The translations under genes were made by a program, and so were the position numbers. Positions 8,734 to 46,130 of a DNA stretch of 64,000 nt are shown in pieces (within the stretch, counting starts at the first letter, position 1; each line of letters opens with the position of its first letter). The notes below the pieces were generated by a model, which saw nothing but the letters and a program-made list of their open reading frames with translations, had not been told where the DNA came from and did not search any database. Origin of the DNA: Antedon mediterranea (taxonomy: Eukaryota; Echinodermata; Crinoidea; Comatulida; Antedonidae); contig NC_092673.1 in the NCBI RefSeq assembly GCF_964355755.1, forward strand, positions 11,909,001-11,973,000, written 5' to 3'.

Positions 8734-9173
8734 AAATAAATGACACGGAATTATTATTCTGAATTTTTAACTTTTGATGTGATAGGATAGGCATAAAGTA
8801 TGACAGATCACTGAGCTCATCTATGCCGACTTGTTTGCTAAACTGTGATGTGTCAATCGTTTTTTCGTTGCATCTAAAAAAATGTACTCCATTTTTATGG
8901 TAAAGGGCCTTTGCTGTAAACCTTTCATCTGAATCCTTTTCCTCGATTTTCTCTAGTCATTGATTTTTTAGCAAAGTCCGAACTAAATCAATTCGTAAAA
9001 GACATCTCAATATAATTATTCAAGTAATCCTCAAATTAGTGACATGGACCTACAATATACTGTTCTGTACAAGACCTGTTTAGGCATCCACCTGTGGACT
9101 TTCACTTTAAAGGTGTTGGTTTCCTAATCATACAAGAAACAATGTCTAATTTAATCAATCAAAGTAGTGGGTC

Positions 9174-16056: not shown

Positions 16057-16464
16057 TGAGGTAGCATTATTGATCTGGTCTTGTGCAATAACCCTGACAT
16101 TGTATGTAATTTCAGAAGTCATCCCGGTCTCAGTACAAGTGACCACCTTGGGGTTTATTTTAATATTAACGCTAGACGCAGTAAAGTTAAACCTGTAGAT
16201 AGATATTATTATCAATATAGTAAATGTGACCATGACGATCTTTTTACAACGTTGGGGGCGGTTCCTTGGGTTCTGTGCCTGGAACAATCAGACTGTGAGG
16301 AAATGTGGAAACATTTTAAAGACCTCTTTCTCGCCACTATTGGTTACCCGCAGGTGCTGATAGTACTTTTTTTCTGTTTTATTGAATGATGCCGTAACTT
16401 GTTTATGATTTTTTGTATGTTACCTGGAAATTGAATAAAATAAAATAAAATAAAAAATAAAAAT
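16057..16464 (+). mobile_element. CR1-like fragment nested in the RTE-like element
   Basis: Plus-strand frame CNNPDIVCNFRSH, LSTSDHLGVYFNINARR, SKCDHDDLFTTLGAVPW, WKHFKDLFLATI: the end of an APE endonuclease (SDH) and following linker, as at 8.0-7.7 kb on the other strand. It then jumps straight to a 3' tail of AATAAAATAAAATAAA (about 16433-16464), so the RT is deleted. RTE coding resumes right after the tail. Confidence 0.75.
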
Positions 16465-19058: not shown

Positions 19059-19998
19059 GACGAAAATTAAACTGCTCAAACTATTGTTGTTCTATCAAAC
19101 AGAAAAAGTAATGATAACATTATAGGATTTGCTCAATTTTTAAATTATTCATTAGAAATTCCAAACCAAACTAGGGGTCTTTATTGTGTTTTATTGTGCA
19201 ATTATCTGCTTCTTTATCAGTATCAACATCAAGCACAATCGTAAAGGTAGTTTTGAAAATAATTAAATATAATTGAAACGTCGACTTTTCAAAATATGTT
19301 TAATCTCTTTATTTGGAGTTACGGGCCTGGTTTGCCTATATGTTATGATATTTGTAGAGAGAATGAAATCAATTTTAACCAGTATGAAAGTGATCACCAT
19401 AAAAGACCGGGCATTGATCTGATTTTCGGAAATTAAAGAGACAGACTAATAATATGATAGTCATCATCCTGATGTCCTTCATTGATATAGAATAGAGGAT
19501 GTAAGAAAATAACAAATTTAAAACAACTCGCACAAGACTTTAAATTGAAATAAAACGTAACAAGTTAGAGGTTTTAATTTTTTTCATTTACTATTAACAT
19601 TAAATAAATCCTATCATCAATTATTAATAATCCGTATAAAAATGTACTGTAAGTTATTTATGTTAAAAAAACTATAAAAAGAATTAATAAATAGTTAGGC
19701 CTATGTGAAAAAATTAAGCAAGCACATTTACTAGCTGGAATACCGCTCCAAATTAGAAGAATGTTCATAATTTGTTACATTCCAAAATTTCAAAATTGTA
19801 AATGTCCTACTCTTTAAACTTCATTCAAGAAACAAAACTTTTAAATGACCTTTGTGGAGTGTTAGGTTTGTAAATTGTTGTACCTATCAACGTACCCCCA
19901 GTTGTGAACACGTGAGTACCGAAATAGGCTTGTCAGTTCGTAATCTTCAACAGTTGGGTCGTCGATGTTTCGAGAAAAGTTCTTCCGTGTTTGGAATG
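19059..19998. other. Region 3' of the protease gene
   Basis: No coding signal. On the minus strand AATAAA words occur near 19172-19187 and an ATTAAA near 19573; any of these could be the polyadenylation signal of the protease-CCP gene, but nothing selects one. Confidence 0.3.
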
Positions 19999-20057
19999 TT
20001 AACTGGATAAAAGAAGCTGTAATACTGGCCATACCATGTGGAACCTTACAAATGCTT
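19999..20057 (-). CDS. Possible terminal exon
   Basis: An acceptor TATTTAG|AA at 20058 in phase 1 would give EAFVRFHMVWPVLQLLLSS then TAA. The short hydrophobic tail could be a GPI or membrane signal. An alternative acceptor eight bases upstream leads to a stop within three codons. No homology support; the true end may lie elsewhere. Confidence 0.25.
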
Positions 20058-20393
20058 CTAAATACCTATAAACACAAGAAAATGCATTGAATATAATATT
20101 TAAATTATAATACACCTACAGTGTAGCGCCCGTAAAGTTCGCCGTCTACTCCGCATCCAAAATCCGAGTAGTATTTTTTGTAATTTCATTTTGAAGCGGA
20201 TTAATTGAATAAAAGTTTATCTTAGACCATGGTTATTTTACTCTCATGACAACTCCCATTCAACTCATATGAATTATGTGTTTACTCCACAATAGAGCAT
20301 TCACATGAGAAAATGATGAATACTGATTTTAAAGATATTACCTTCATGATGGAAGGCATATTTCAACAGGACAAGAACGACAATTTCACTCAC

Positions 20394-20633
20394 CACATGA
20401 TAGCAATTCTTGGCTCCATCCCGAGTCATAGCACCTAATGACAAGCGACGTTACTGGATTACCAAAGCTTGATAAAACAGTATATCCCGGAGGACACCTA
20501 ATGATCAGAATACTTCCAACGTCTAGGATAGTTCCTACTTTTGGTGTATTTCCCACGTAACCACTGCCATACACAACCACGTTTGTGTTGTGTAATAAAG
20601 ATATTCTGCAGTCCGATTCCATAGTTTCAAGAA
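20394..20633 (-). CDS. Exon: CCP19
   Basis: 240 bp, acceptor TTAAATAG|TT, donor TGTG|GTGAGT. SDCRIS, IRCPPGY, IRCYDSGW, LSC. It has a long first loop (HNTNVVVYGSGYVGNTPKVG). Confidence 0.8.
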
Positions 20634-23600
20634 CTATTTAAATAATATAAAAGTTACCGCATATGTCTATTGCTAATAGAATCTTAATTAAAATGTTTAA
20701 AACATATTAATTTAGTGTTCGTTTAAATGTATGTAAAGTAAAACAGGATGTAACCTGAAAGGTTTGATTAGGCCTATACTATTCGTTTTCAATTAGCAGA
20801 GTTTACGCTGCTTCATTATGTCAATTTTCAATCTGGTTTTGTTGATGACACATTATTCTATAACACTGCAGAAATTCAAATTATTTTGCCTTTACCAGCA
20901 TCGTAATTGATTGGTGTTTTTTTTTTACTCAAAGAGCGACTGCGTATTTTAAACAAGTAGCACACTGTTATAGTTTGAATTTCTCTATATAGGCCTATTC
21001 AATATTTGAATACGTACCGCACGTAGGAGGTTGGCCGGACCATTGGTTACCTGGTAAGCAGAGTAAGCTTGATGGGCCACTAAGGTAGTATCCTGCATTA
21101 CATTCGTATATTACCATATCCCATGTGTTAAAACTTACTCCAGTTATTTTCCCATCTACAATGCTACCAGGATCGCCACAATAGTTTTCTACATAATAAT
21201 GAAAATCAGTTTTAATTTTTTTGAATCATTATTTTTGATATATTTTGATAATTTGGACAAATTTAAGGAAAAGAATATTTGAAATTCCATGAGGTATATA
21301 AAACGTTCAATACTCGGAAGTATCAATAAGCCAAATTGATCTTCATTTCCCATTTTCAAACAGCGAAATAACGGAGAATATCTTTAACTGCAATCGGACA
21401 ATTCTGCTATATGAACGATCGTCTCTTTTCACTCGCCGGCAACAGTGCATTTTTTGTTTATCTTTTCTTCCTGTTTCCCCTGTTATTGTGCATGCAGTGA
21501 AGATAATTACTTTTTCGTCATTTTATGTACCCCTAAGATTTTATGCCTGCCTTTTCCGCTTTTCGTGCTAATTTCTTAAACTATATCTACCAATTTAGAA
21601 CTTTTCCCTTAACGATCTCATAGCCGATTCCACATTCTCTTTATCGTCTCGTGCACATCGTCTTCAGTCACATTAAGACATCAATACTTCTAAGGGCAAC
21701 TTGATATACATCTCCATAAACGCAGTAGATTCCTTTTTTGAAGCAGTATGGCAACTTCTCTTTTGCTTTACTTACTTTATGTTTCAGTCTCTCAGTCTCT
21801 TTCCTCTCCTCTTTGCATGCTTTCGATGAATACCTCGGTAAAACGGTACTTTCTCTGCTGATTTAACTTAGGTGAGAACATGAAAATCAAGTGTTTTGTA
21901 TAACATTGCGATGCGAAATCAGTGGTATTCATGTCCCAGCGGAGATAGGCCTATGTTGATGCAATGTAGCTATTTCGTTGCTCAAGAGATTCATTATTAT
22001 GCACGCGTCTGGTCTTAACTTTTTTTTCAGTTTAGGCCTATATTCAACTCATACATAAATTCAGTCATTGGTATTTATAAATCGTCTATACCCCTTCCTC
22101 CTCTTCTTGCTCTTCTTTGTCTTGTAGCTTCTTCCAGAATTTAACTTTCAGTTATCAATGACAATAATCAAAAATTGCTTACAATAATTTTTCAATCGTT
22201 TTTCTAGCACACGGTATAATAATTAAATTGCCATTTTTGTAGACACATGATCGAAAATGCTTTGTAACTCTCAAAAATTTGTTTGTTTGTAAATCATGTT
22301 TTGTCAATTGGCCGGCCATCAACGCTTCTAAGATGTCGCAAAATGTTTTATTGTCAGTTTTTGTTACATTAAGTGAATGCAATGTAATCTTAATCTAAAT
22401 GCAAATTATGTGATTTTCTGAACTTCCTTATAACCGTATTGATCTTTTTCTATAATTTATCTTACAGCGGAGCAATTGGTGCTAAATTCGGAGAAATTGT
22501 CAGTAGAGCATCGCATCGATGAATTATAGCATATTCATATATAGCAGAGAAAGTGTCGGCGGAGCAATTTTTATAACAAAGGTTTTGTAAGTAAACTTTT
22601 ATTCAATTAATATTTAAATCAATGCCACACGATACGAGGTCAACCGATCTAATTGTATGGATATACATAGTTGATAACCAACTATTATTTTATTATATTG
22701 CTAAAATCCTGCCTGATCAGTTAATAATAACACAATAAAGCAATGATTCCATTGCCTACTAATGCACGGAATAGGGATTACTGATTAACGTGTATAAATA
22801 GAAATTCATTAAATATTGCCTTTTCGGCTTTACCTATAGGACTGCAAGATACATCTCTACCACTCCATTCACCGGATCCAGTGCAAACACGTCGTCTGCT
22901 ACCTCTCAGTCTATATCCTTCATTACAAGAAAATGTTAATGATTGCGTCCTGTAGTATTTATCTCCAGTTACTAAACCATTCACTGGGGCGTTTAAAACT
23001 GGACAGTTTATATCTGCATGATAATCAAAATAATAACTGATTAAAACCATACTACCATACTACCATACTACCATACTACTACAATAAACATTAAAGAAAA
23101 CATAATAATAAATCAATAAAGACATTTATATACACTATACTGAGTAACTGTGACGTCAACGAAACGTGAATTTGACATTTCTGTTGCGTAAAATCGACGT
23201 AGGCAGAAACTGTGTCGTGAAATTATTTAATTTTTCCTGATCTTACTAAGGGAACATTAATTGGTTATTTGAGGTGGTGTAAAAATTGAACTAAATTTGA
23301 AAACTGCCCTGGAGTTGGAGGGATTACTACCTATGGCGAGTATCTTGTCTAGTAGGGGCCTACACCAATTGCATAACTGTATCTTTCTTCTTTTGAACAT
23401 GCTATCCTACTACATTATTATTCCACCTTGATACATTAGTTGTTAAATCAATGGCCATTTATCAATCCTTCAAATGGAATGTTTCACTTATGTAATACAG
23501 GCTTTCTTATAGGCTTACCGGGAAAGAGTGAATTTATAGTTTTTATTACTGGTTTTATAGAAACAATCCTATTAGGCCTATTTTTAATTAACCACGTCGT

Positions 23601-26600
23601 TTAAATGCGGAATGTATTGTTAAACATTAATTGTTTAGCGATTTATCTTAACACAGAACATATACATATATACATAGATAACGGATATTCAATAAACTCC
23701 ATAATGAAAAACAATTACTTACAACATTTAGGATTTTCAGAATGTGACCAGCTTCCATTTACGCATGTGCTTGTTTGTTCTGTTATTAAAGTATGTGTAT
23801 ATGGATCGGCACATTGGAAGTCGATGTGCGTATCATGTTCTAGTGTGCGCTGTTCATTCCTATCCACAACTGAACCCGATGTTGTGATGACAACTGGTTG
23901 ATTTCCTACGCCCGGGACAACACATGGCCACTTACTATTGTCTATATGTTATAGAATCATTATATATAATAGATTATCATAGTCCTAATTATCTAAAAGA
24001 GAAGTTTGTAATGGGTAGAACATTTACTGAGGGTACGACAGATACTAGCAAAATGTTGTAAGTAGAAACAATGGCTTCAAGATATTCTTTAAAAATGCAA
24101 TTGTGGATCGAAGTGTCGAATTGTACTTTTCTCAAAATGTACTTTTATATGATAATATGACTTAATTTTACGTTTTTGGTGTTTTTATTCAACGTTGGAT
24201 TTATTTTTATTTTTGTGGAGTCACCAGCTGATGGTAACGTATATATATCTAAACAAGTTTTAGAGCAGAATTTTTTCGAATTTTATATTTAACCATTTTA
24301 AGAGAATTTAATGTTTTTTTATTGTCATTTCTATGTGTTTAAATCTATGTCCAAATGTTGAATCTAAAATTCATGTCTGTAAAAAGCAACACTTTGTTTA
24401 CGGTGACTTTTAGTTTTAGTTAATAAAACCATGGATTAATGAATAAAACATATATAGGCCTACTATTTTCAACCCAATTATTTGGAATAAATTATATTTT
24501 TACATAAAAAAAATTAGTTTGGTTCCCTTATATAAATCTTTCAACATTAAAATTAGAATTGTAACAGGACGTGGGCCTAATAATTAAAATATTAAACACG
24601 TTTGTGTTCATCTTACCCATGCAGTAAGTTTCGGTTCCTGTCCATTCACCAGTTGAGTTGCATCTTCTACGCCGGCTTCCTTTTAAGTTAAAACCATCGT
24701 CACATGTGATTTCTACCCATTGGTTCCGGTAGAATTTGTCGCCAACTATATTCCCATTTTCAGGAGCAGAAATTTCTGGACATCGAATTACTAATTAATC
24801 AATCAAAATATTAAATTAAAATAAATGTATTTTTAAAATAGACATATTTAATAAAAGAAATAATGCAAGTGTTATGCAACATATTATTATAGATGACATT
24901 ATATGGTAGTTAAACTTACAGACTATTATACTAATTACTTTGGTAATACTGTATATGTTTTACTCTAAACTAAATTACTCTCATTACATTTATTTATTTC
25001 TAGGTCACCAGATACAAATGGGACATTACAGTTTTCACATTTAAATTAAACGTGGAGAAGAATTGTATACAATTGTATGAATAACATGTTGTAGATGCAA
25101 AGCTTACAAAAACAATCAGACAATATTAGAGGCCCTAATATTTAAGTTACATTGACTTAGCAAGCGCCGGAATGAAATTGATTAAGTTGATGACATACGT
25201 TACTTAGCACTCCATATTATTTTTGTATACGAATTACTCATATTAAAACATTAGACCAATTTATTCTCACCACATCTTGGATTTGAAGTAACTGACCATT
25301 CACCATTGTCACATTCGCTTACTGGTTCTGATGTTAGAATATACTCTTCAGGGTTAACGCATCTAAATGCTAAAAGAGTGCCATGTTCTGCCCTTCTTTG
25401 TATACTCGGATCGATTATACCACCACTGCTCGTATAAATAAGAACTGGTGTTTGTGGTAATGGAATTATACACGGTGAAGCATTGGAATCTATGAGAAAG
25501 ACACAACCATTTATTTAATTAGTACATACATAGCAACGTTTATAGCTGGCGTTTATAATGTCGTTTTCAGTCATTGTTGAAGAAGTAGAAAACGATGTGC
25601 AGATTATAAACGTTTTAGATGTTACCGTTGTTTTGTTTTCTATGACGTTATAAATCATGAGTCAGGTATTAGTAAGGAAAAATGTTAAACCACAATGGCC
25701 AGCACAATCATAGCTGACAAACGCCCATTGTCTTTATTGTACAGCACTAATATTATTCAGAAGCAGCCGTAGGCTAACTTATTCTAATTGCTGATAGTAA
25801 AATAATTATGTAATATGTTCAAATATATTTTCTTTTCGTAAACTGGTATTAATCTCAAACATATATTTTGGAGAAAGTTTCTTGTTCATCATTACCCATG
25901 CAGTAAGTTTCGGTTCCTGTCCATTCACCAGTTGAGTTGCATCTTCTACGTCGGCTTCCCTTTAAGTTAAAACCTTCATCACATGTGAATTCTACCCATT
26001 GATTCCTGTAGAATTTGTCTCCAACTATATTCCCATTTTCAAGAGCAGATATTTCTGGACACCGAATGACTAATCACAAATTATACAATGTTATAAGTCT
26101 GTAATGGTTTATATATTGAATATAATTATAAAACAAAAACAACGTTAGTTAAAGGATATCCATTAAAGTTAGCCTGATGGTAGAATTTAGTAGACTAAAA
26201 GTGGGCCTAATAATAGTAATTGTTATTGAAGATGTAACCACTCACCACATCGAGGGCTGGAGGTATGCGACCAAACAGCATTAGTGCAAACGCTTTCTGA
26301 TTCAGATATTAGAATGTATGTTTGAGGATCACCACATCTGAACTCTAGACGTCTTCCATGTTCAACCTGACGTATTACAAATGGGTCAATAATATCACCA
26401 CCACTCAAGATGATGACGTCTGTCTGTGGTCTTGGTACTACACACGGAGATTGATTTGAATCTATACAAAAGCAAATGTATTAGTTTAAATAACAAAATA
26501 ACAATAGTAGGTTCATAGTTATGATTATTACTACCAGTAGCAGGATACAAATAATACGATATTTATGTATTTAGTTAGTTCTGCATCTGCAGGCATTTAT

Positions 26601-29600
26601 TGGTTGAAAGAAAAACAAAGTTTAATTGCAGTAAGTAAGTATTAATTATGCTTAATAATAATAGAGTATGACCTGTATATTTTCGTTGACATATAATTAT
26701 TGTAATGAATGTAGGATGTGACTAAATCGTAGTGATCGCTCAATTCGTTTGTACAAGAATTAAATTATTCGAGTTACATTTTTTGTGACGAAATTGGTAT
26801 CTACAGAGTACAGTTAGCTTTGAATTGCCTAAGTATGTCACTGAAACATTTCTACTAAATTTTACCGTTTGCTTTGAAAGATGTCTAAGCCGAAAAAGTT
26901 GCACATAGAGAGCTCAATGGAAAGGCAAAATCTAATCTACCAAGACTAATTTTAGATAAAATAGACGCAAAATTGTGTGAAATGGAGCGGGAACGATGAA
27001 TCTTTATGAAGCTCCCAATAAACAGATTTTTTCTTCAAACTTCCAAAAGGACATGTCTTGATTGATGGAATGAATATATGTTTGAGCCACAGTCAATTAT
27101 TACTTGGTAACTAATGACCAGTTTTTAGGGAAATCTTTATGTACGTATTCAACAAAAATCAAGAATTGTACAAATTGTCTACCAATAGTATATAGTTTGA
27201 TTGCTATGTCTCATTTTTATGAAAATGTTTTCCTGTTCCTTATTTCAACATTCAATTTAAAACATCAGCAGCCGATTTTCCATATGGATTTATATATACA
27301 GTATATATATAATGAATGTAGGCCTACAAATTGGCATCATTATGATGTACACGTGTAACTGATCGCAAGGAAAAAATCCTGCAAAGAAATTTGTTTGGAT
27401 GAGGCAATGGATAGAACAGCGACAATAGCATGGTCCGTAATAATAATAAGTAGAGGACATAGAAAAGCAATACAACAATGTTAGAGTACACCCACAGACA
27501 AATTATCAGACAAATACATATTGTCTTATTTTGTTAACCAATACCTACGAATAATACAAATAGTTAGTTCTCCAGACCACTGTCCATCTTGTTGACAAGT
27601 TCTCTGTCTACTGCCTTGAAGGTTGTATCCAGTGTTACAATCAAACTCTATGACGTCATTATATGAAGATCCCTGAGTAACAATAACGCCATGCATCGGA
27701 GGATCAAGTACTGGACACATAACAGCTGTTAAAAGTAACCAGAACGTCATAGCAATATTACTGTACATTCACATTCTGTATCCTTTAGTTTTTCTACACA
27801 AGTAGTCTATTTAGAAGCCATACTCACGGTTACAAGTAGTTAGTTCTCCAGACCACTGTCCATCTTGTTGACAAGTTCTCTGTCTACTGCCTTGAAGGTT
27901 GTATCCAGTGTTACAATCAAACTCTATGACGTCGTTATATGAAGATCCCTGAGTAACAATAACGCCATGCATCGGAGGATCAAGTACTGGACACATAACA
28001 GCTGTTTAAAAGTAACCAGAACGTCATGGTAACATTACTGTACATTCACATTCTGTATCCTTTGGTTTTTCTACACAAGTAGTCTATTTAGAAGCCATAC
28101 TCACGGTTACAAGTAGTTAGTTCTCCAGACCACTGTCCATCTTGTTGACAAGTTCTCTGTCTGCTGCCTTGAAGGTTGTATCCAGTGTTACAATCAAACT
28201 CTATGACGTCATTGTATAAAGATCCCTGAGTAACAATAACGCCATGCATTGGAGGATCCAGTACTGGACACGTGACAGCTGTAAATTATACAGAAAACGT
28301 GATAACAGTACACAGTAACTGAAGATTCACATTCTGTATCCTTTGGTTTTTCTACACAAGTAGTCTATCTAGAAGCCATACTCACGGTTACAAGTAGTTA
28401 GTTCTCCAGACCACTGTCCATCTTGTTGACAGGTTCTCTGTCTACTGCCTTGAAGGTTGTATCCAGTGTTACAATCAAACTCTATGACGTCATTATATGA
28501 AGATCCCTGAGTAACAATAACGCCATGCATCGGAGGATCAAGTACTGGACACATAACAGCTGTTAAAAGTAACCAGAACGTCATGGCAATATTACTGTAC
28601 ATTCACATTCTGTATCCTTTGGTTTTTCTACACAAGTAGTCTATTTAGAAGCCATACTCACGGTTACAAGTAGTTAGTTCTCCAGACCACTGTCCATCTT
28701 GTTGACAAGTTCTCTGTCTGCTGCCTTGAAGGTTGTATCCAGTGTTACAATCAAACTCTATGACGTCATTGTATGAAGATCCCTGAGTAACAATAACGCC
28801 ATGCATTGGAGGATCCAGTACTGGACACGTGACAGCTGTAAATTATACAGAAAACGTGATAACAGTACACAGTAACTGAAGATTCACACTTTTTATCATT
28901 TAGTTGTTCTATAGAGGTAGTCTGTTTAGAAGTCATACTCACGGTTACAAGTAGTTAGTTCTCCAGACCACTGTCCATCTTGTTGACAAGTTCTCTGTCT
29001 GCTGCCTTGAAGGTTGTATCCAGTGTTACAATCAAACTCTATGACGTCATTATATGAAGATCCCTGAGTAACAATAACGCCATACATTGGAGGATCAAGT
29101 ACTGGACACATAACAGCTGTTAAAAGTAACCAGAACGTCATGGTAACATTACTGTACATTCACATTCTGTATCCTTTGGTTTTTCTACACAAGTAGTCTA
29201 TTTAGAAACCATACTCACGGTTACAAGTAGTTAGTTCTCCAGACCACTGTCCATCTTGTTGACAAGTTCTCTGTCTGCTGCCTTGAAGGTTGTATCCAGT
29301 GTTACAATCAAACTCTATGACGTCATTGTATAAAAATCCATGAGTAAGAATAACGCCATTTATTGGAGAATCTAGAACAGGACACGTGATAGCTGTAAAT
29401 AGAAACAGAACGTCGATACAAATAATCATTTACTTTTATTTTTAACTTTTAACTCAAAAGAATACTTAAATATATAAAGATATACCTAAGATAGTAATGT
29501 TGTCTTATGAAAGACAATGGGTGAAGTCACTAGTTTGACTATCAAGTACTAAGCATATAACTTGAATTCTGCTGGATTTAGACAAAAAAATACCCTATTT

Positions 29601-32600
29601 TGGAATCTAATTGCAAAAAATTTAGTTATTAGAAATGAGTTTTTGGACCATAAGCAACCATTATCGACGTTTGAAACTGAATGAATGAAATCTACACTAA
29701 TAAATCATTTGATACTTAGTGTTCTAGTATGGTTTTTACTTTACTAGTTTTATTTACTGGTGGTATATGAGTTACTGTTTATTTTATTTTGTGATGTTCT
29801 AATGGCAATTGTAAACCTACCTGTATATTTTTATATAACTTCTGTCTATTTTTTAAATGCTTTAACTTTTTATATATGTAAAATACTCAAAATAAGAAAA
29901 ACAAAAAAAAACTATAGATTATTGTAACAATTGTAAAGAATGAAATAAAAGTCAGTGAATCTCACAAAAGACAAAAAAAAATAAATCATTTGATTCAACA
30001 ATGTGAATGAATGTGGTATTTCTTATTGGGTATCACGTCAACGAATTGTTAGTGAAATACTATACTATATAGGGCTTTAATTGTTCATATACTATTTATC
30101 TAAATTAATAGTTTAATGCAAAGTTTCTGACGTGTTGTGTTTGTGTGTCTATGCTCATACAAAACAAATTGTTGAAATCTAAATAGTCGAAAATCGTAAA
30201 TTGTATTCATTTCATTCTCACAGATGTTTAGTCTAAGGCTGTGTTTATATATTATTATGATTTTGTATCAGTCTATAGTATTGTAAAGTAGTCCTGTTCA
30301 TGCTTTTTATATTTATGACTCGGATTTTCCGTTTACACAATTTTGTAATAATTTGGTTGCAGCTACAGACTGTACAGATTAGTGTACTCATAGTGTAATA
30401 ATATAGTGTCTTTTTTCTCAAACTAAATTTTAACACACATATTTATGAATATTAAAAAACTGTTTTGTATTTTGAGTGTATGGTCAGTATAGTATATAAT
30501 AGATTGAGACTACAAAACAAAAAATAAGGGGAAAATAGGGTAAAAAAATCCAAGTTCAATTCCAAAAATTTCATTTTAGATTATCTCACTCTTCCTATCA
30601 AAATAGCAATATTTGCTTACCACAAAACGGTTCCTGTCCTGACCATTGTCCCTCGGTACAGATTCGCTTATTTTCAGTTGTAAGATGTAATTGCGTTTCA
30701 TTAGCACATACTATTTGAAGCTCGTAGCCTTCCTGAAAGACGTGCTGTTGTGATGCGGTAAGTGGGACATCCCCTATTAGTAGAATTACGACGTCGTTTA
30801 CCTCATTAGGTCTACTGCAGCTTATTTCTCTGTCAATAAGTACTATATGAAAAGGAAAAATATACAATTGTGTTCTAAAAAAATGCCATCAATTTACTAT
30901 CGAGTGAATTAGAACGCACAGTGCCTACAATCAAATAAAATTAAACATACCACCAATTGTTTTGTATTATGATACATGTTATGAAGTAGTCATAGATTCA
31001 ATCTATTTACTTACCACAATTAGGGAATGGTGAGCGCGACCAATCTCCATCCACACATACACTTTCTCGAACTATTTCTCCTAAACCATCTCCCAACACG
31101 TGATCAGGATCACATACAAGCTCTATATGATAACCGTGATCAATTAAGGTACCAGGATAAAGTGGAATTGTGCTTGCCTGATTAAACTCGTAAAATGAAC
31201 CATTGTCGAGGTTCGGTATTATACAACTTCTTGGTACTTCAGGCATTGTGGAAGTTACTGGAGCCAGTGTCGTTGTTTCTAAAAAAATAGAAAACGGACT
31301 CTTAATGATGACAAGCTAAATTAATTACAAGAATTGTTATTACTTGAATAGGCTATTCCGTGTCTATGTTCAATTCTCCTTCATAATTATGTACGCGTAT
31401 GAAACGCTGCTACACAAGTTTTTGACGATTCTATTTTTGACGTGATATCTTCATTCATCACATGTACTCCATCGTCATAGTTTTCAGTTGTCGTGAGCGT
31501 TGGGCAATTAGTCGATGCAATTTAGTTGATGTAATTTACCCGATATTTATCACATCAAAAAATCGGACAAAATTTGGCGTCGATTCAATATTCATTAATA
31601 AAGTAAAACATTGAATAGTCTAAAACTTTCTATAACGTTCTTACCAAAAAACATTTGCTTGATTGATTGCAACCATTCATGATGTCGATATATTCGTACA
31701 TAAACCCCTGGAATTCCATCTCGAGCACATCCAACTCCCCAGCTAACAAGGCCAACTAACTTCCATTCACCGGTTTCATAATCCTGTAACAACATTTCTT
31801 GATTGTTTCTATGTAATATATGCTATTCATTGCGGTAACTTTAACAATAGTTAGCATGGAAGTACTGTACTGATTTGTTAACGATATCATCGAACATACA
31901 TCAATTTTGATCACGATCATGTCACAGAATGGTTACAAAAATAGAAAATGACGGATTCAGACACACGTAAACAGCAAAGGATTTTCAACAAGAATTTTTT
32001 TCCACAAAATGGACGAAGTTCAAAATATCTAAATTGTGTTTTAATTAGTGATACAGCACACTATGTTAGACTTTCCCCAAGTCTGTATTAATTCATTGTC
32101 TTTTTTTGTATTTATTTATTTTTATTTCGATTTTCGAGTATCCAACATCAAGTAGTATACTTATGAAACGCCATATGTGCCAAAACATTTATCTTTTTAC
32201 TAATATTAAGTAAAAAACTCCGTCTGGGACCCAGAATACACATATGTATACATTGTGTTTGTATTAAAAAGTTGTGATTAAAAAAAAACATAATAAAAAA
32301 AATCGCCAAAAAATTTATTTCGAAGCGGTTTAAGAAACATTTCTGTGAAGAATATTCCAGTGTTTTTTTAGATAAGATGACTTACAGATTTTGACCGACC
32401 ATTTTCATATGATAAAAGCTTTAAAAATGACTAAACCACCTGATCATGAACAGTAAAATACCATTAGCTGGAGAATTTAGATGCCCGTTGCGTTAAAAAC
32501 GCCGAAAAATATCGTGCATAGCCATAATTATACGTTATTTTGGCCACCGGCCACTTTTCCCGGTCCCGAGGGTGGCCGCGTACGAGGGTTCAACTGTATT

Positions 32601-35600
32601 GATTTTTACATTTTAAAAATATCAAGAAAAAACAAAACAATTTCAATACAGAAAATAGAGTTGTATTTCAATACAAAAAAAATTATTATGAATTGCCAAC
32701 TCCAGACTTCATCACATGAGGAGACTTACTAGTCAACAATTTGTTTTGATCGCTTTGTAAATGAGACATCTTATTATCTTTAAATCAACAATTATTGTTC
32801 GTGTAAATTATTAAAAATCCAAATATGCCGTTATTTTAGGTATAGGCCTAATGCTAATTAGTAAGAAAATAATGTAATGTAATATATCACCAGCTTACGG
32901 CGTTTAATTCCTATTTAAATATATCTCTATGGAAAGAAAGACCATTTGAAGTTTTATTAATGCAATGGAGAAAAATCACCACACCAATGTCATGTAAAGG
33001 CGTCAGTAGAGTGTTTAAAACATATTATTTTTTTCTTCTGTTTTCCTTATGTGCTGTGATCTCATGATTCGATTATACGACATGTTAAACAAAAAGAGTT
33101 ACTCAGATAAATTGAAACCATATTGTGGAGAGAACAACTGAAGATAAAATATTGTTCATAAGATTTTACTCAACTGTATTAAAGAGGAGAAAACAAATTA
33201 ATGATGATTATGTTGTAGCCACTAAAATCATTACTATATAATACTATTTGTTGATTAATTAATTCAATTCAATTCAAATAATCTTTATTGCAATCTAAGT
33301 AAACAAAGATTGAATTTTAGATAGATAAAAAAAACACATTATAGTGATATCACATAGAGTAGTTATTGAAAAAGAATATAATGCTACAACAATTTGTTAA
33401 TGATTTAAATAAAATTTTAAAAAACTGCCGTTTTTTCATAGTATGAAGAACCACTTGCATTTGATTATATATATTATTAGTATAAATTCTAAAACAACGC
33501 CTCGTTAAATATAACATTCATAATTGTATAATTATTCCAGTAAAAGAATGGTTGAACCTAGAACAAATTGCAACATATTTTTGTTTTACCTGGTTGATAT
33601 GTTCCAAATGAGCATCATATCCAAAGTTTAACAAAATCAAACATCGAAAAGTGGGTTAATTAGCATATATTCAAAATGGCCGCCATTTGCTATTTTAAAG
33701 CCCCATATCTCCTTAACGGTTGGATTTAGACAATCTAAGTGCATTACGAGTAGATATAAATGTGATATTAAACATTCTAATTAGCATATTTAAATTCCCA
33801 TATGACGTACATATGATGTCATATGGTAGTTGTGACGTCATACATTATGTTATAACTGCTTAAATGACTTTATATTATGCGAACAATTTAGAAACTGCAG
33901 GAAAACAAGTTTTTTAACGTTCTCCTTGTAGAAATGAACATCATTTTCAAAGTTTACCATAATCGGACGTCATGAAGTGGGTTAATTAGCATAAATGGCC
34001 ACTATTTACTATACCATTTTGAAGCTCTGTATCTCCTTAACGGTTGTTTTAGACCACCTAAGTGCATTGCGGGTAGATATAGATGTGATATTTCCCAAGT
34101 AGCACATTTAAATTACCATATGACGTAACTATGACGTCATTGAACCATATTTACCAGACAAAACAAAACAAAATTCTGTTGCAATTTTTTCTAGGTTCAT
34201 CCTATTTTTGACTTAGGCCTATCTTTACTGGACTCAATATTTCGTAATTTACCTGGTATGTAACTGGACCACCACTATCACCATTACACGCATCTTCTCC
34301 TGTATTACCTCCCATGCAAAACATGTTGTCAGTGATATCGCCTGTATGTGCTATACGGCATGTTCGCTGGCTAACCACAGGTAACTCAACCTAAACCATA
34401 TACATAGGGTAATTTAAGTGGTAAGAATTACTTTTATGACACTAGAACAGCTATGAATCTAATAATAATAATAATAAGACAGATTTCTGTGCACACGCAC
34501 AGAATGTCATTTATACTCGATAACTTCATGGAAGAATCCCTAATCTTAGAGCATACAACAGTTTAATATAAACTGCTAATGTGGAATGCTTTACATTAAC
34601 ATTGAAAATGCACCTTTTTTAAAAATCTTGATAGTTCACCGCCTTCCCGAAGTCTACCCCATCCAACAACAGTAAAAATATTATCCGGTATAATTAGACT
34701 CTCTGCTGAATCAGGCTCTGGTAGACATACTAATATAATATAAAAATAACTCATAAAAGACATAGCATGAAGGTGTTACTAAGCACAACGAATACATAGG
34801 ACCACTTCGGCTAAATCGAAAAAAAGTTTAGGACACCAAAAACATCTCATCCAAAAATTCCCTGAATCGTAGTATTCTTAAATATAACAATTTTCTATCC
34901 CCACAAAATCTCAGACCCACAATTGCATGGTTTATCAATATTCCCAATGGCAGATCTTTATCCTCCCTAATTAACGCGTCAAATAGCCAAAATTGTTTAC
35001 TTACTTTTACGATATGACCAGCAATTTATTCAGCAGTTAAAGAGATATGATTTCAACCTAATACGGCATCATTGTTCATTACCGACCCTAAACCTCATCT
35101 CACTCACCCCGTGGAGTCCAAGCCTTTGCAAAGGGTAGGATTAGGACATGGCGAATCTTTGCACAAGCCTCGGATATGACCCTGACATTGTAGTTTTAGG
35201 AATAAAATATTTACTCAAAATCACTACATGTAGTAACGAAAACTCCCATAACCTAGAATAATGTATGTGCAGTATTTAGACTACCAAGATGCAAAGTATT
35301 TACAGGAGTTAATAAGATATTACTTTTAGAAAAAAACAATTACTTAAACAATAAAATGACACTATGGGCTATAATAATTGTTTTAGGCCTACCTGGTATA
35401 ACGTTGTCGGTAAAAGTAGCATCTCTGTCAAGTCGAACCAAAGCAATATCATTATAAAGTGCATCCAGATCAAAATCGGGATGTAAAAATACACGTTCAA
35501 CTCCAAACGATTGTTCATGCGATTCAATTATTTCTCTGTTATGCTTTCCTAATCGAACAGTAAGTCCACTAGCATCTGTTACGTATGCATAAACACAATG

Positions 35601-38600
35601 TCCTGCAGTCAGAACCCATCTTTCATCAATTAATGCACCACCACAAAAGTGATCATTAAATGGTGATTGTGTGAAAGACACTGCCCATGGGACAGCCCCT
35701 CGTCGAACCAGATCACCACCAACTATTCTGTAATCCTGAAATATAGGTCTACCACACACGTAATCATCTGAAATGTTATGTAAACTATGTTATATTATAC
35801 AATGACGTACATTCTGTTTAGCTAAATTGTAAGAATGATAATAAATTATAATGTAAGCATAATAATAAGCAAATCCATTAATAAATGTGTTAGATAGGCC
35901 TATAGGCCTACAGTATTCCACTACCACACACTAAGTTTGATAGTTATTGTATTATCCGTGAGGTATACCTATGCGGGTACAAGATGGAACGGCTCCAGAC
36001 CACATTCCGTCTGGTTGGCATGTTCTTTCCATAAGAGTTTGATTAAACAAACGGTAACCGTCACGACAAAAGTACGTTGCAGTAGCTCCTACAGTCCGTG
36101 TGGAAGGTTCCACATCAACAAATACCCCGTTGTCATTGTCGTCGAAAAGTTCTTCGCATATGACTATGAAAACAAGATTACGTTATTAATGATTATCTAT
36201 AATAAACACAATAATTACCATTAATTTAAAAAGATTAAAGATTTCACTACCAGATGGATACATTCAAACAGGATTTAAAACAATGTCTTCTTAATCCGAT
36301 ATTTTTTTTAAAGTGATTTAAAAAACATATTTTCAGTAATAATTCAACATTTATTAGTTTCTATCAATGGTATAACAATACAATAAAAAAAGAATGATAA
36401 TTTATTCTTTTTTACACTATATCTTTAAAGTAGTAATGTAATAATATACTACTAATTCGACTACATACTAATAATGAAATGAAAACAAAAATATAATTTA
36501 ATGCTTGCGCTTTTAGTTAGAGCCTGGAGGTGATTCTATAACGAATGCATTGTGAAAGGATGAAGAAGATAAAGGAGCTGTTCATGTGATATTTTGGTAC
36601 TGATATGCTATTATCTTACCAGCTTTAATGCACACCGGAGAAGTTCCGGTCCATTGTCGGTCTCCTCGGCAAATACGGACTTCGTCACCTTCATCTGATA
36701 GCATGTAGCCAGTGGAACATGAAAAAGTAGCTATTGCTCCAAACCGAATAGGCAAAGGCGCTACTTCAACTTTTAAGATACCAGATGAGTTGAACTCTTT
36801 ACAATATTCAGTTCTTTCTGTGTTACAAGAAATAATGATAATTATTATTAGGACGATCTGGCCAGGAAACCAAGGTGACAGGCCAAATTAAGCTCCGGGT
36901 AAAAATAGTTATTTTTACACTATATTACACTGTAAAACCAGAATCAAGTAAGTAATACTGATTTACTTAAAGATTCTGAACAAAACGACGTTTGTCGATT
37001 GGTATATTACGATAATATACTCAAGTTTAAAGTGTAAAATCAAACGTAGCAGAATGGCTACATACCAACCGAAAACTCCCGCCGCGGGTGCTATGAGCAA
37101 CGGAGTAAACAAATCCGGTAGGCAAACAACAAGGAGGTGTGAAGCCTGTGTTTTTAAAAGCAGACCAAATTCCAGCCGATCTATGCATTACATTAACAAA
37201 AAGTATACCCGCCGATCACATCGAATTCATGTCAATGATAGGAAAGACAGAGTGCAACTAATAACTAACGGTATAAACATAAGACATTGTCAATTATCAA
37301 GAGGTCTCCGACAAGGATGCCCTTTCTTACCATACTGATTTATATTGTGTGCCGAAATATTGTCTTCTCATATTCGCCACAACCCAAGAATTAAAGGTGT
37401 TACAATTAATAATCGAGAAATTAAACTAATGCAATATGCCGACGATACAGTTATTCTCGATGGTCTTAAAGAGTCTATTTTGGGCACTATGAAAGTTCTT
37501 GAAAATGTTGCCAATATTTTTGGATTAAAAATATATCAAGGTAAAACACAAGTGATGTGTATAGGATCGGATTAACAGACCTACTAAAATTTGAAGAGGA
37601 TACCAAACTAAAAAAACTTAATGGACAAAAGGTCCGATACTTGGAGTTAAATTTACCCTTGATCCTTCGGATCTGTTTACTCTGAACCTATTACCTCAGC
37701 TTGACAATTTTCTTTTTTAGAAACCTTGAATAAATTCAATTTAGGTATGTCATTTGTGAACTGGGTAAAAGCGCTGTATAACAATTGTATATTCACAAAT
37801 AATAGTTGGCAATCAGAAAGTTGTGTTATGCATCAGGGTATTAGGCATACCCTGGCATACCAGGGTATTAGGCATACCCTGGCATACCAGGGTATTAAGC
37901 AAGGATGTCCCTTGTCTGCTCTACTGTTTATTTTAGTAGCTGAAGTTCTAGCTACAAAAATAAGAACATGTGATATAATCAAAGGCCTGATTGTTAAAAG
38001 ATATAAGATTGCACAGCTGCAGATGACGCTGTATTTTTTCTAAAGGACGTAAATAAATTAAATAGTTGATGCATTGGAGAATACCCTAAAAAAGAATTAC
38101 TATTGTAAACACATTAGCGCCCTAAAAAAATATATACAATTCCAGCATTTTACTAGTACCAGAAAAGGTAATAAAAGAGGCGGAAAAATTAATTTGGGAA
38201 ACTAAGTAAGAAAAAATAAAAGGAAAAACCATGTGCGCCAATTACAGTCAAGGTGGTCTAAAAATGGTAGATTTCAGATCTCGGGTAATATCTTTCCAAG
38301 TTAAATGGTACAGGAGACTGTATGAAAACGATGACGCCAAATGGAAATATTTACCAACATTGTATATATAGAAAAAATGCCATATACATGGCTGCAGTCG
38401 CGTGCTCAAATTTGAGTTAGTGTTTACCGACCGACCGACCGACATAGTGAGCTATAGAGTCGCGTTGCACGCGACTAAAATATGCCCAAAATCAATAACC
38501 TCAAATATATCAAAAGTGTCGTGTAATCTCTAGGTTATTAATTCTATCTCAGTAGCTAATGCTTGTAATAATATATTAAATAAGAAACCAATATAGGCTA

Positions 38601-41202
38601 CCGTATGATGATATTATTAATTAATCAATCACTATGGGGTAATGCGCTTATATGTATTAAAAAGAAGATGATATAGATCAGTTTTTAAAAGTAAGATGTA
38701 ATAAATAATAATGTGTTTAAGTCTGCGATAGAGATAGAAAGAGGGTTAAGATGTACACAAAATTGGATTAGCGAATATTGAAAGCCATTCCACAAGAATG
38801 GAAATGTATTTTAAAAATCAACATGTGACATTAATGTAAATGATATACTTATTAGGACTTCTAGTCCATGCATATACACAGGACCGTTTAAAATTAATGT
38901 TTCTGTGTCTGTTTTGTAGAGTTGCATATGTATAAATCCAAATGTAGAAAAATTTCAATGCTGTGAGTATCAAAAGTACTAAGTAAGATAATAAATGAAT
39001 ATATAATTGCAAAATGACAAAGTTAAACAGTAAATTTGCATTTTATATGTGTGTTTTTTTTGTAAGATGTTTATGTATAAGTAGTTAAATGTGTATTTAT
39101 CAAATGCAGTTCGGATAAAAATAGTCTAGGAAATGGAATATCGGGTGTGTGGGGTCTGTTTTTTTAGAATTATTAATAATAAAGTGAAGTGTGACTATCT
39201 TATACAAACTCTCCAAAAAATATTCGATAGTGTTCATTAACTGATCCCTCAAAGCTATACAGCGTATTACAAAAACAACCCTTTTAGAGGACTCGTAAGG
39301 TAAGTTTTAAGGAGAAATATATTTAAAAGTAGGTTAGATCAAATATTATCATTTTAGTGCATGGATAATTGGATTGTCAACACATTTTTATAACCTATCA
39401 ATAAAACCTATAATTGCAGTCGTACAGAAATATGACGTATGAGATTCTTATAGCAAATTAATCGTCATGATTTTTAGGCTAAATGTAACTTAAGGTTTAA
39501 ATTTTCAGTAGACAGCAGTGCCATTTTATTTGAAAATTACTCAAAACATTTTCATATTATAGATGATGATAGGTAAAACAATAGAATGTATTGTGTGTCA
39601 ACCTATCCCCTCATCTTTCAATGTTATTGAATATCTAATAAATGGCCATATTTTATTTTGGAAGTCATTACCATGGCATCAAAAAATCGTTTAAAAAATG
39701 CGGTTGTAGTTAAGCCTAACATAATACACTTAATCTTCAGGACGCCCGCATGTTGACGTTTCTCCACTTTTACAGGAAGAACCAACTCAAGTGGTTAAGC
39801 AGATTGATAAAGTCAAAAGCGATGTCCAACCACTAAAAATCTTCTTCATAATTGAAGAGGTCCGGTTCAAAAATCACTTACTGACGGTGTAAATAAGAAA
39901 TTTAAAAAACCGCACAAATATATAAACCTAGAAATATAGGTTAATGCTAAAATGACTAAGTCTAGTTTATGAATTTAAACAAATTAAACAAAAAAATTTT
40001 ACAAATTTGCTTACGAGTTAATATACATGTCCGTCCACATATACCGTCACATACGCACTCTCTACGAGCGTTGTCGCATGATCTAGTCACTTCGCATTGC
40101 TGTGCTGCACAGCCTCGTCCTGTGGCCAATAAAGCTACTTCGTCTCTAATGCAATCTTGAGCTTAAATTAAATCAAAACGTAACATATAATGCTATTGTT
40201 TTTTTTCCTTTATCTAAATATGAAATAGCAAAGCTGTAACAAAACTGTACATATTTAAAGTGTATAGGACTAAATATTTTTTTCTGTTGTAAAATTTGTT
40301 TAATTAATTATTAATTAATGTGACTATGGCCTTTCTGATAAAATTTTCTCCAAACTTTCATAAACAAAAATAAAATAAATATTAGTATTAACAAAATTAT
40401 GTAGGTCATGTTGTGACGTCATCAATATACTATTAGATAAAGATTAAGTCAAATAAGTTGTACTACTTTACTTTTTTTGTCGACCTTGGACCATGTAAAT
40501 TCGTCATTATGAATCATTTAATATGATATAATCAAAACAATTATTGATGTAAAAGAACAAGGGGAACAAACAAAAAATATGATGAATGTTATAAATCATG
40601 TTTGAAAATTGCATAAAACAAGAACTGATAAGAGGAGGAGAGAAATAATTATACATATTAGTTCTTAGTAAACGGAAAAAAAGTTATTGTCTGTCACATC
40701 AAATTACGATACATCTATATTAATGATACGATTACGGTATATTCTGTCATTCAGTTTAGTTATTTTTGTACTTATAAATGTAAAATAGAGTTTAATTTAT
40801 TTTAAATATCTTTGAAAAGGAGAAAAATCAGTACCGTATAATATGTGATTGGAATATTTTAAATACAATTTTAATCTACAGATTTTATAAATATCACATA
40901 AATTAAGACTATCCAATTTAAATAAAAAGACGTTCATAATGAGCATTATCATTCACATTCACATTATATGAAACAAGGGGAGAGAAATCTATTCAAATCA
41001 TCAGCGGTTTCACTGTAACTTATTCTGATAACAATTACAATAGCCGAGTAGTGCGGCCTCCTCAATTTTGTATCCACCTTAATATAATGCGTATCTTAAA
41101 TCGTACTCATAGGCCTACTCTACTTAGGCCTACTCTATTTAACTTACCCCAACATGGAAACGTTGACAATAAACAATAAGACACTAATAACACGGCTAAC
41201 AT
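20394..41202 (-). CDS. Secreted CCP/Sushi mosaic serine protease (whole gene)
   Basis: Gene model from hand-read splice sites; 25 exons plus a doubtful last one, about 1,554-1,573 residues. Domain order: signal peptide, WAP-like eight-Cys module, CCP1-2, trypsin-like protease, CCP3-19. Almost all exons are symmetrical phase 1-1 CCP exons; within the protease the junctions are phase 1, 0, 0 and 1, and the last protease exon ends G|GTAAGA in phase 1, feeding straight into CCP3. The protease has the complete triad, an R|IVGG activation site and Asp189, so an Arg/Lys-specific zymogen is expected. CCP modules bind proteins and carbohydrates in complement and clotting factors (C1r/s, MASP, factor B, Limulus factor C); in those the protease is C-terminal, here it is not. 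Role in humoral immunity or clotting is inference. If the intron after 31645 were retained, a short form would stop at 31595. Several L1-like fragments lie in the intron between 40.0 and 36.8 kb. Confidence 0.75.
21018..21188 (-). CDS. Exon: CCP18
   Basis: 171 bp, acceptor TATGTAG|AA, donor TGCG|GTACGT. NYCGDPGSIVDGKITG, YECNAGYYLSG, LLCLPGNQW, PTC. Confidence 0.86.
22834..23013 (-). CDS. Exon: CCP17
   Basis: 180 bp, acceptor CATGCAG|AT, donor ATAG|GTAAAG. INCPVLNAPVNGLVTG, FSCNEGYRL, RVCTGSGEW, VSC: a textbook CCP. Confidence 0.88.
23048..23082. repeat. CATACTAC microsatellite
   Basis: Four to five copies of an 8-bp unit in the intron before CCP17. Confidence 0.8.
23723..23941 (-). CDS. 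Exon: CCP16, long type
   Basis: 219 bp, acceptor ATATAG|AC, donor TGTT|GTAAGT. WPCVVPGVGNQP, FQCADP, STCVNGSW, PKC. Third and most diverged long-type CCP. Confidence 0.83.
24617..24790 (-). CDS. Exon: CCP15
   Basis: 174 bp, acceptor AATTAG|TA, donor ATGG|GTAAGA. IRCPEISAPENGNIVG; differs from CCP13 at only a few residues. Confidence 0.87.
25271..25489 (-). CDS. Exon: CCP14, long type
   Basis: 219 bp, acceptor CTCATAG|AT, donor TGTG|GTGAGA. SPCIIPLPQTP, FRCVNP, SECDNGEW, PRC. It is the paired homologue of CCP12. Confidence 0.85.
25548..25614. repeat. Imperfect hairpin in intron
   Basis: CGTTTATAAT..CGTTTTC is followed by GAAAACG...ATTATAAACG, an imperfect palindrome in the intron upstream of CCP14. 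Possibly a miniature element; no ends defined. Confidence 0.45.
25896..26069 (-). CDS. Exon: CCP13
   Basis: 174 bp, acceptor GATTAG|TC, donor ATGG|GTAATG. IRCPEISALENGNIVG, FTCDEGF, RRCNSTGEW, YC. Nearly identical to CCP15. Confidence 0.87.
26246..26461 (-). CDS. Exon: CCP12, long type
   Basis: 216 bp, acceptor TGTATAG|AT, donor TGTG|GTGAGT, phase 1-1. QSPCVVP, EFRCGD, SVCTNA, PRC with Trp in VWSHTS. It shares with CCP14 and CCP16 the SGG.IDP...RQVEHG body. Confidence 0.85.
27549..27725 (-). CDS. Exon: CCP11, array copy 7
   Basis: 177 bp, type B start. Its 3' end has changed: the last cysteine is followed by II and the donor is ATTC|GTAGGT, so it is one codon longer than the others. A second GT a few bases on (GTAG|GTATTG) would break the phase. 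Confidence 0.78.
27828..28001 (-). CDS. Exon: CCP10, array copy 6
   Basis: 174 bp, type B. Core SRQRTCQQDGQWSGELTTC is shared across the array. Confidence 0.87.
28105..28278 (-). CDS. Exon: CCP9, array copy 5
   Basis: 174 bp. Type A start, with GSLYND in place of GSSYND. Confidence 0.87.
28386..28559 (-). CDS. Exon: CCP8, array copy 4
   Basis: 174 bp. Type B start VMCPVLDPPMHG; 276 bp from the previous copy. Confidence 0.87.
28662..28835 (-). CDS. Exon: CCP7, array copy 3
   Basis: 174 bp. Type A start VTCPVLDPPMHG; upstream intron is the GTAAATTATACAG type. Confidence 0.87.
28943..29116 (-). CDS. Exon: CCP6, array copy 2
   Basis: 174 bp, same splice signals. Type B start VMCPVLDPPMYGVIVTQG; upstream intron is the TTAAAAGTAACC type. 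Confidence 0.87.
29219..29392 (-). CDS. Exon: CCP5, array copy 1
   Basis: 174 bp, acceptor TTTACAG|CT, donor AACC|GTGAGT, phase 1-1. Most diverged of the seven-copy array at its N-terminal end (ITCPVLDSPINGVILTHG). Confidence 0.87.
30621..30842 (-). CDS. Exon: CCP4
   Basis: Acceptor TCATATAG|TA, donor TGTG|GTAAGC, 222 bp, phase 1-1. Cysteines in ISCSRP, IVCANE, RICTEG and PFC; GQWSGQ holds the Trp. Confidence 0.85.
31015..31278 (-). CDS. Exon: CCP3 with Thr/Pro linker
   Basis: Acceptor TTTTTAG|AA, donor TGTG|GTAAGT, 264 bp, phase 1-1. Begins with ETTTLAPVTSTMPEVP, a Thr/Pro linker after the protease, then a CCP with cysteines in RSCIIPN, LVCDPD, SVCVDG and PNC and Trp in GDWSRS. It is longer than a usual CCP. 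Confidence 0.83.
31645..31783 (-). CDS. Protease exon d: C-terminal end of the domain
   Basis: Acceptor GTTACAG|GAT, donor TTTTTTG|GTAAGA, 139 bp, phase 0 to 1. LVGLVSWGVGCARDGIPGVYVRI, then HHEWLQSIKQMF, the usual C-terminal helix. Gly216 and Gly226 positions are glycine, leaving the S1 pocket open. With it the domain's eight cysteines make the four canonical pairs 1-122, 42-58, 168-182, 191-220. The strong donor means translation normally continues into CCP3. Confidence 0.9.
33583..34150. repeat. Diverged tandem duplication in protease intron
   Basis: Two blocks (about 33620-33845 and 33945-34140) share AGTGGGTTAATTAGCATA, ATCTCCTTAACGGTTG, CTAAGTGCATT, GTAGATATA and TGACGTCAT in the same order. 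Between protease exons c and d. Confidence 0.65.
34253..34390 (-). CDS. Protease exon c: catalytic Ser195, Asp189
   Basis: Acceptor GGTTTAG|GTT, donor CAG|GTAAAT, 138 bp, phase 0-0. VVSQRTC ... NMFCMGGNTGEDACNGDSGGP. Ser195 is coded AGT (AGY type, as in C1r/C1s/MASP2 rather than the TCN type of MASP1 and trypsins). The residue six before Ser is Asp, giving trypsin-like preference for Arg/Lys. Confidence 0.92.
34614..34729 (-). CDS. Protease exon b
   Basis: Acceptor ATATTAG|TA, donor AAAAAG|GTGCAT, 116 bp, phase 1 to 0. Joins as IPVCLPEP (Cys122 partner of the propeptide Cys), then FTVVGWGRLREGGELSRFL, the usual GWG turn of the protease core. Confidence 0.88.
35393..35767 (-). CDS. Protease exon a: activation site, His57, Asp102
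   Basis: Acceptor ATTTCAG|AT, donor CCAG|GTAGGC, 375 bp, phase 1-1. It reads VCGRP (cysteine that pairs with Cys122), the activation bond QDYR|IVGG, FCGGALIDERWVLTAGHC with catalytic His, and YNDIALVRL with catalytic Asp. TAGHC replaces the commoner TAAHC. The region AVPWAVSF after the activation site is typical of the chymotrypsin fold. Confidence 0.93.
35969..36163 (-). CDS. Exon: CCP2
   Basis: Acceptor TTCATAG|TC, donor ATAG|GTATAC, phase 1-1, 65 codons. Cysteines in VICEE, YFCRDGY, RTCQPDG, PSC; MWSG is the CCP tryptophan. The CCP-CCP-protease order here equals the catalytic fragment of C1r, C1s and MASPs. Confidence 0.88.
36620..36817 (-). CDS. Exon: CCP1
   Basis: Acceptor AACACAG|AA, donor GCTG|GTAAGA, phase 1-1, 66 codons. 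Four CCP cysteines: EYC, TFSC, RIC, PVC; Trp in RQWTG before the fourth. No further CCP exon was found between this and exon 2, where retrotransposon fragments fill the intron. Confidence 0.85.
37054..37575 (+). mobile_element. L1-like RT fragment 1
   Basis: Frames with LSRGLRQGCPFLPY, then AEILSSHIRHNPRIKGVTIN, LMQYADDTVIL. RT palm blocks of an L1-like element, interrupted by a stop at about 37338. It lies antisense in the protease gene's intron. Confidence 0.75.
37731..38371 (+). mobile_element. L1-like RT fragment 2
   Basis: FNLGMSFVNWVKALYNNC, HQGI...KQGCPLSALLFILVAEVL, a frame-shifted YADDAVFF (about 38018), then GGLKMVDFRS and RRLYENDDAKWKYLPTLY. It repeats the RQGCP block of fragment 1, so it is a separate copy. 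A 27-bp palindromic segment is duplicated inside the RQGCP block at about 37837-37890. Confidence 0.75.
38393..38479 (-). repeat. GTCGCGT-type miniature element
   Basis: CTGCAGTCGCGTGC, GAGTTAGTGTTTACCGACCG, GACCGACATAGTGAGC, then GTCGCGTTGCACGCGACTAA. Ends AGTCGCGTGC are inverted. It directly abuts the end of L1-like fragment 2. Deleted relative at 18913-18965. Confidence 0.65.
40015..40161 (-). CDS. Exon 2: WAP-like eight-cysteine module
   Basis: Acceptor ...TTTAAG|CT, donor ACTC|GTAAGC, 147 bp, phase 1-1. The 49 residues hold eight cysteines: QDC, GRGC, QQC, RSC, then ECVCDGICGRTC. The end C-x-C-x3-C-x3-C resembles the CC-x3-C-G-x2-C end of WAP (four-disulfide core) domains with one extra residue between the adjacent cysteines. 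Assignment to this gene rests on strand, phase and the join with exon 1. Confidence 0.65.
41148..41202 (-). CDS. Exon 1: signal peptide
   Basis: ATG at 41202 opens MLAVLLVSYCLLSTFPCW, a hydrophobic secretion signal, and ends TGG G|GTAAGT (phase 1). Joined to exon 2 it gives CWA-QDC, a good signal-peptidase site after Ala. A TATA-like TATTTTATAA lies about 25-35 bases upstream on the minus strand (41228-41238). Too short for an ORF scan; found by looking for a donor in the right phase. Confidence 0.6.
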
Positions 41203-45695: not shown

Positions 45696-46130
45696 TGACA
45701 CGGAATTATTATTCTGAATTGTTAACTTTTGATGTGATAGGATAGGCATAAAGTAGCCTATGACAGATCACTGAGCTCATCTATGCCGACATGTTTGCTA
45801 AACTGTGATGTGTCAATCGTTTTTTCGTTGCATCTAAAAAATGTACTCCATTTTTATGGTAATGGGCCTTTGCTGTAAACCTTTCATCTGAATCCTTTTC
45901 CTCGATTTTCTCTAGTCATTGATTTTTTTAGCAAAATCCGAACTAAATCAATTCTTAAAAGACATCTCAATATAATTATTCAAGTAATCCTCAAATTAGT
46001 GACATGGACCTACAATATACTGTTCTGTACAAGACCTGTTTAGGCATCACCTGTGGACTTTCACTTTAAAGGTCTTGGTTTCCTAATCATACAAGAAACA
46101 ATGTCTAATTTAATCAATCAAAGTAGTGGG

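Follow-up and report, generated by a model that had tools for sequence, protein, structure and literature searches.

A trypsin-like protease between two runs of CCP modules in a predicted gene of the crinoid Antedon mediterranea

Introduction

In a 64,000-nt stretch of the Antedon mediterranea genome (contig NC_092673.1, positions 11,909,001 to 11,973,000; hereafter, the window), exons for a trypsin-like (S1) protease and for a long array of CCP modules lie next to each other on the minus strand. A preliminary description of this DNA proposed that the reading frame runs from an active-looking protease into a CCP tail of ~1,050 residues and that the resulting layout is new. Here, we ask whether protease and tail belong to one gene, how such a gene could have arisen, and how unusual it is.

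Results

A single open frame with a protease in its middle

The exon set used for splicing consisted of the exons recognized initially plus protease exons 34729-34614 and 34390-34253. When these 25 minus-strand exons (41202-20394) are spliced, a single open frame of 1,554 residues without a stop is obtained. All exon borders are GT-AG, and the phases are consistent along the whole 25-exon chain. The frame specifies, in this order, a signal peptide, a WAP-like 8-Cys head, CCP1, CCP2, the S1 domain, and, after a Thr/Pro linker, 17 CCP-type modules. The features outside the protease and the tail are as follows:

41148..41202, minus strand: exon 1; contains the start codon and encodes signal peptide MLAVLLVSYCLLSTFPCW; donor in phase 1
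40015..40161, minus strand: WAP-like 8-Cys head module; phase 1-1; two genomic relatives elsewhere
36620..36817, minus strand: CCP1; phase 1-1; closest in the genome is CCP1 of both sister genes (see below)
35969..36163, minus strand: CCP2; phase 1-1
19313..20065, minus strand: probable terminal exon; Gly-Ile-stop, then 3′ UTR

The acceptor of the probable terminal exon, at 20065, is strong and in phase 1; two poly(A)-type signals (19578 and 19313) lie downstream of the stop, and the protein end predicted from this exon contains no membrane segment. Judged from the sequence, the locus is probably a single gene encoding a secreted protein of ~1,556 residues, with the protease in mid-chain, that originated by entry of a protease cassette into a protein made of the head and a CCP array. 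The head resembles WAP modules in its cysteine pattern as judged by eye (C-x5-C spacing and a GxCGxxC-type end). It has no match in Pfam and none in PDB; in a sibling gene, the corresponding module gives a weak match to Pfam WAP (E = 1).

The protease is encoded by four exons:

35393..35767, minus strand: protease exon 1, with Cys1, activation site DYR|IVGG, His57, and Asp102; phase 1-1
34614..34729, minus strand: protease exon 2, Cys122 region; phase 1-0
34253..34390, minus strand: protease exon 3, with Asp189 and Ser195 in GEDACNGDSGGP; phase 0-0
31645..31783, minus strand: protease exon 4, with LVSWGVGC and PGVYVRI; phase 0-1, ending with phase-1 donor GTAAGA

Pfam Trypsin matches this region at 8.3e-62 over the full domain (1-220/220). 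The features that define peptidase S1A (trypsin fold, H57, D102, S195, D189, and the R|IVGG site) are all present according to the translation and PDB alignments, the catalytic residues being found in motifs TAGHC (His57), NDIAL (Asp102), and GEDACNGDSGGP (Ser195, together with Asp189). The top PDB matches are crayfish trypsin and then MASP-2 CCP-SP, and the MASP-2 alignment reaches into the preceding CCP. Cys1 and Cys122 are found as well. The earlier characterization of the protease as active-looking stands, and an active enzyme with trypsin specificity is predicted.

The junction between protease and tail

The donor of exon 31783-31645 reads TTG|GTAAGA and is in phase 1; exon 31278-31015 also opens in phase 1. 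The two are separated by a short intron:

31279..31644, minus strand: intron between protease and tail, 366 bp; contains a stop in frame if retained

To score the splice sites at the junction, we derived a weight matrix from the gene’s other exons, with the junction left out. The donor outscores 98% of regional GTs, and the acceptor outscores 96% of regional AGs. The matched 1/1 phases at 31645/31278 and the one open 1,554-residue frame agree with the earlier proposal that the frame continues from the protease into the tail.

The same exons could, however, belong to two neighbors, one encoding an ordinary secreted CCP-CCP protease with its stop at 31595 and the other, which would begin near 31278, encoding the CCP array. 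Artefacts of in silico joining of adjacent genes are common and are known to yield false domain architectures (PMC3927609). The stop on which this reading draws is where it had been placed previously: When the intron is retained, the frame extends 18 codons beyond the donor and ends at 31595. The protease is terminal in this genome’s other CCP+S1 genes (7 of 7 checked, among the matches listed), which also favors two genes, and the first tail module, 31278, is under Pfam detection, which speaks against a single one. On the other hand, a scan of the 366-bp intron for a signal-peptide exon with a phase-1 donor gave no candidate, so a tail gene with its own first exon was rejected. As a control, the scan recovered the true signal exon at 41202; in the protease introns, its sole candidates overlap protease exon 34729-34614 itself. 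Neither AATAAA nor ATTAAA is present in the 366-bp gap, exon 31278 begins with a phase-1 Thr/Pro linker, and the head and the tail indicate the same two sister genes (see below). We therefore consider two neighboring genes quite unlikely; protease and CCP tail are probably joined in one gene.

One gene may nevertheless yield several products: the full-length protein, a short protease that results from intron retention and stops at 31595, and a form that lacks the protease because cassette 35767-31645 is skipped. The cassette comprises 768 nt and is in phase 1 at either end, so it can be inserted or skipped without a frame change, and the frame stays open in either alternative product. However, most of the splice sites are good, and skipping is not predicted by sequence. 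We regard such a set of products as a tentative option that is less probable than not. It is compatible with a single gene that acquired a protease cassette and would refine that explanation; the protease-free form would resemble the sister genes.

Composition of the CCP tail

The modules that follow the protease are distributed as follows:

31015..31278, minus strand: Thr/Pro linker ETTTLAPVTSTMPEVPR, followed by the opening module of the tail, a divergent CCP
30621..30842, minus strand: divergent CCP module, under the Pfam cut-off
27549..29392, minus strand: seven near-identical canonical CCP exons (29392-27725); introns of about 100 bp; recent tandem array
22834..26461, minus strand: three tandem pairs, each with one divergent (26461, 25489, or 23941) and one canonical CCP (26069, 24790, or 23013)
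21018..21188, minus strand: canonical CCP; its top two genomic relatives are CCPs of both sister genes
20394..20633, minus strand: final CCP-type module, divergent; phase-1 donor

As described initially, 17 CCP-type exons are located downstream of the protease, each in phase 1-1. Pfam Sushi supports 11 of them, the near-identical array and the 26069/24790 pair having been tested on representatives; the other six (31278, 30842, 26461, 25489, 23941, and 20633) fall below the cut-off and are divergent 4-Cys modules. The tail is indeed long, at about 1,100 residues, slightly more than claimed. When compared by hhalign, a profile of the six divergent modules matches that of the canonical modules (92.9%). 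The AlphaFold model of module 26461, the one of the six that was modeled, has a pLDDT of 92.3, and its best Foldseek matches in PDB are CCPs of factor H, C4BP, and CD46 (prob 1.00, but with E of 0.03-0.1). The tail thus has the properties of CCP/Sushi modules (four Cys plus Trp, about 57-80 aa, phase 1-1 exons), as assessed by Pfam for 11 exons, by profile comparison for 6, and by a fold model for one of these 6. At least part of the tail is under purifying selection, since dS is 0.27 and dN is 0.022 for exon pair 26069/24790.

Sister genes without a detected protease and the probable origin of the architecture

A search of the 354-Mb genome revealed relatives of the WAP-like head in two other genes only, C2:5898953 and C4:8474528. 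In both, a long array of CCP exons in phase 1-1 follows the head, and about 20 kb of sequence showed no protease motifs. The same two genes were recovered with modules from either side of the protease. On the 5′ side, the best non-self matches of CCP1 are the CCP1 modules of these two genes (56 and 46%). On the 3′ side, CCPs of the two genes occupy the first and second rank for exon 21188 (E of 4.4e-8 and 4.8e-7), with 42.1 and 38.8 bits versus 38.1 for the third gene; because the second match is barely ahead of the third, this ranking supports but does not prove a common origin of the flanks. The CCP order is not collinear between the window gene and the sister genes. One divergent CCP-type exon of the C4:8474528 sibling, located toward its end (C4:8491516-8491752), is duplicated with 92% identity on another chromosome (C9:18858607-18858843).

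Since both head plus CCP1 and exon 21188 lead to this one pair of genes, the two ends of the protein look like parts of one old scaffold. The sister genes share the start and the module chain, with no enzyme detected; the window gene therefore looks like a binding protein that gained a protease. The simplest account is that a head-plus-CCP scaffold captured a phase 1-1 S1 cassette; alternatively, both siblings may have lost the protease. The internal intron positions of the cassette match those of Ig-S1 gene C8:8283481 and not those of the inspected CCP-S1 gene C3:9626. In its fullest form, the capture scenario holds that a factor-H-like scaffold with a WAP-like head gained a mid-chain S1 cassette, that the enzyme is placed between two CCP arms, one linked by a disulfide and the other carried on the catalytic chain, and that skipping could still give the protease-free ancestral form. 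We lean slightly toward this version.

The Ig-S1 gene (C8:8283481-8285729) has three internal protease intron positions in common with the window gene. Its final codons, SCDNGK and a stop, overlap a perfect GTAAGT donor, and it may have a spliced tail; none was found before the neighbor gene. It was not accepted as a second example of the architecture, there being no cysteine-rich tail ahead of the next gene.

Other S1 genes of the genome

The seven genes with CCPs upstream of S1 mentioned above (C4:29213, C4:30945, C3:38551, C9:8168, C3:9628, C3:9634, and C10:24491) are closed by an in-frame stop, which lies between a few and about 35 residues past the S1 domain. Among the matches listed in the genome, no CCP+S1 gene other than the window gene has CCPs following the protease, and they include no paralogue with the protease-plus-CCP-tail layout; the Sushi and Trypsin match lists are lower bounds, and a further CCP-tailed gene is possible. 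We found no report of an S1-then-CCP protein from echinoderms in the open literature, although one may exist.

In three other genes, the S1 domain ends in a phase-1 donor and is followed by different modules, the joins being inferred from genomic sequence: LDLa and Fz in C1:14462827, CUB and LDLa in C8:23225239, and CUB, LDLa, and a Thr-rich region in C6:24291692. The C6:24210 array was not counted as another S1-CUB case because its CUB exon is nearer to the next tandem S1 copy. Mid-chain S1 is thus a recurrent layout, since at least three other S1 genes of this genome and OVCH2 carry module tails. The claim of a new layout consequently holds for CCPs after S1, which are unique among the matches listed, but not for a modular protease with a tail, of which C1:14462827, C8:23225239, C6:24291692, and OVCH2 are examples. 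What is new is the tail of CCPs, an internal S1 domain as such being already known.

Discussion

Comparison with known proteases and CCP proteins

MASP-1, MASP-2, C1r, and C1s share with the window gene the order CCP-CCP-linker Cys-S1, R|I activation, and the Cys1-Cys122 chain link. They differ in that the window gene lacks CUB-EGF-CUB and has a WAP-like head and 17 CCP modules past the protease. Pfam detected no CUB in residues 1-848, and the sole EGF-type entry, cEGF, was far under the cut-off. Neither the CUB-EGF-CUB head nor the C-terminal protease typical of C1r/C1s/MASP is present, and 1,100 residues follow S1 in frame. The factor B/C2 layout (CCP-VWA-SP with a C-terminal protease) does not apply either: Pfam gave no VWA match, and the protease is internal. 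Polyserases resemble the window gene in that the sequence continues past S1 in the same chain (PMC1435904), but there the continuation consists of more S1 domains instead of CCPs. Factor H and C4BP have a similarly long tandem CCP chain, and the modeled module 26461 is predicted to resemble their CCPs; they have no protease domain. The sister genes C2:5898953 and C4:8474528 are alike in the WAP-like head, the closest CCP1, and the long phase 1-1 CCP array and differ in that no protease motif was found and the CCP order is not collinear.

The ovochymase/oviductin layout is S1 followed by CUB; the tail of the window gene is made of CCPs, and CUB is absent in residues 1-848. To our knowledge, no CCPs have been described ahead of the protease in OVCH2. 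One could still regard the window gene as encoding a secreted ovochymase/oviductin-like trypsin in which CCPs take the place of the C-terminal CUBs and the tail is merely a dispensable anchor. OVCH2 is likewise a secreted trypsin-like protease with a C-terminal module tail, and its CUBs are dispensable for function in mouse (PMC10850435); S1-CUB genes are also present in the crinoid genome. However, the protease intron positions are unlike those of the S1-CUB array genes and like those of Ig-S1 gene C8:8283481, and the lack of CUB likewise argues against this relationship, which we regard as unlikely.

Possible mode of action and genomic surroundings

If the captured protease works as its family would suggest, a trypsin-like enzyme would cleave the zymogen at DYR|IVGG, and the new N terminus would switch on the protease, which is expected to cleave after Arg/Lys. 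The Cys1-Cys122 disulfide would hold the head and CCP1-2 on the activated enzyme, and the peptide bond would keep the CCP tail attached to the catalytic chain. Tethered through both arms in this way, the enzyme could be kept at a surface. The two arms would direct it to a surface or ligand, and its action would thus be local. The immune or clotting role suggested initially is hypothetical.

If the protein is working, it would show that a complement-regulator-type scaffold can take up an S1 domain as an internal, symmetric module, and a binding tail would be tied to the catalytic chain, not to the propeptide alone. Since protease-free siblings with the same head persist in the genome, it is directly testable how the architecture arose and what changes when catalysis is added to a CCP scaffold.

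The surroundings of the gene contain several repeat-like features:

6064-8199 (minus strand), 11624-12295 (minus strand), and 15398-16198 (plus strand): LINE-type retroelement-like fragments near the 3′ side of the gene
13208-14428, plus strand: ORF resembling a Penelope-like retroelement (reverse transcriptase and a GIY-YIG-type end), from reading the translation
9155-10713 and 46053-48057: the same kind of simple repeat, with GWSYTPFFVCG-type ORFs in several frames
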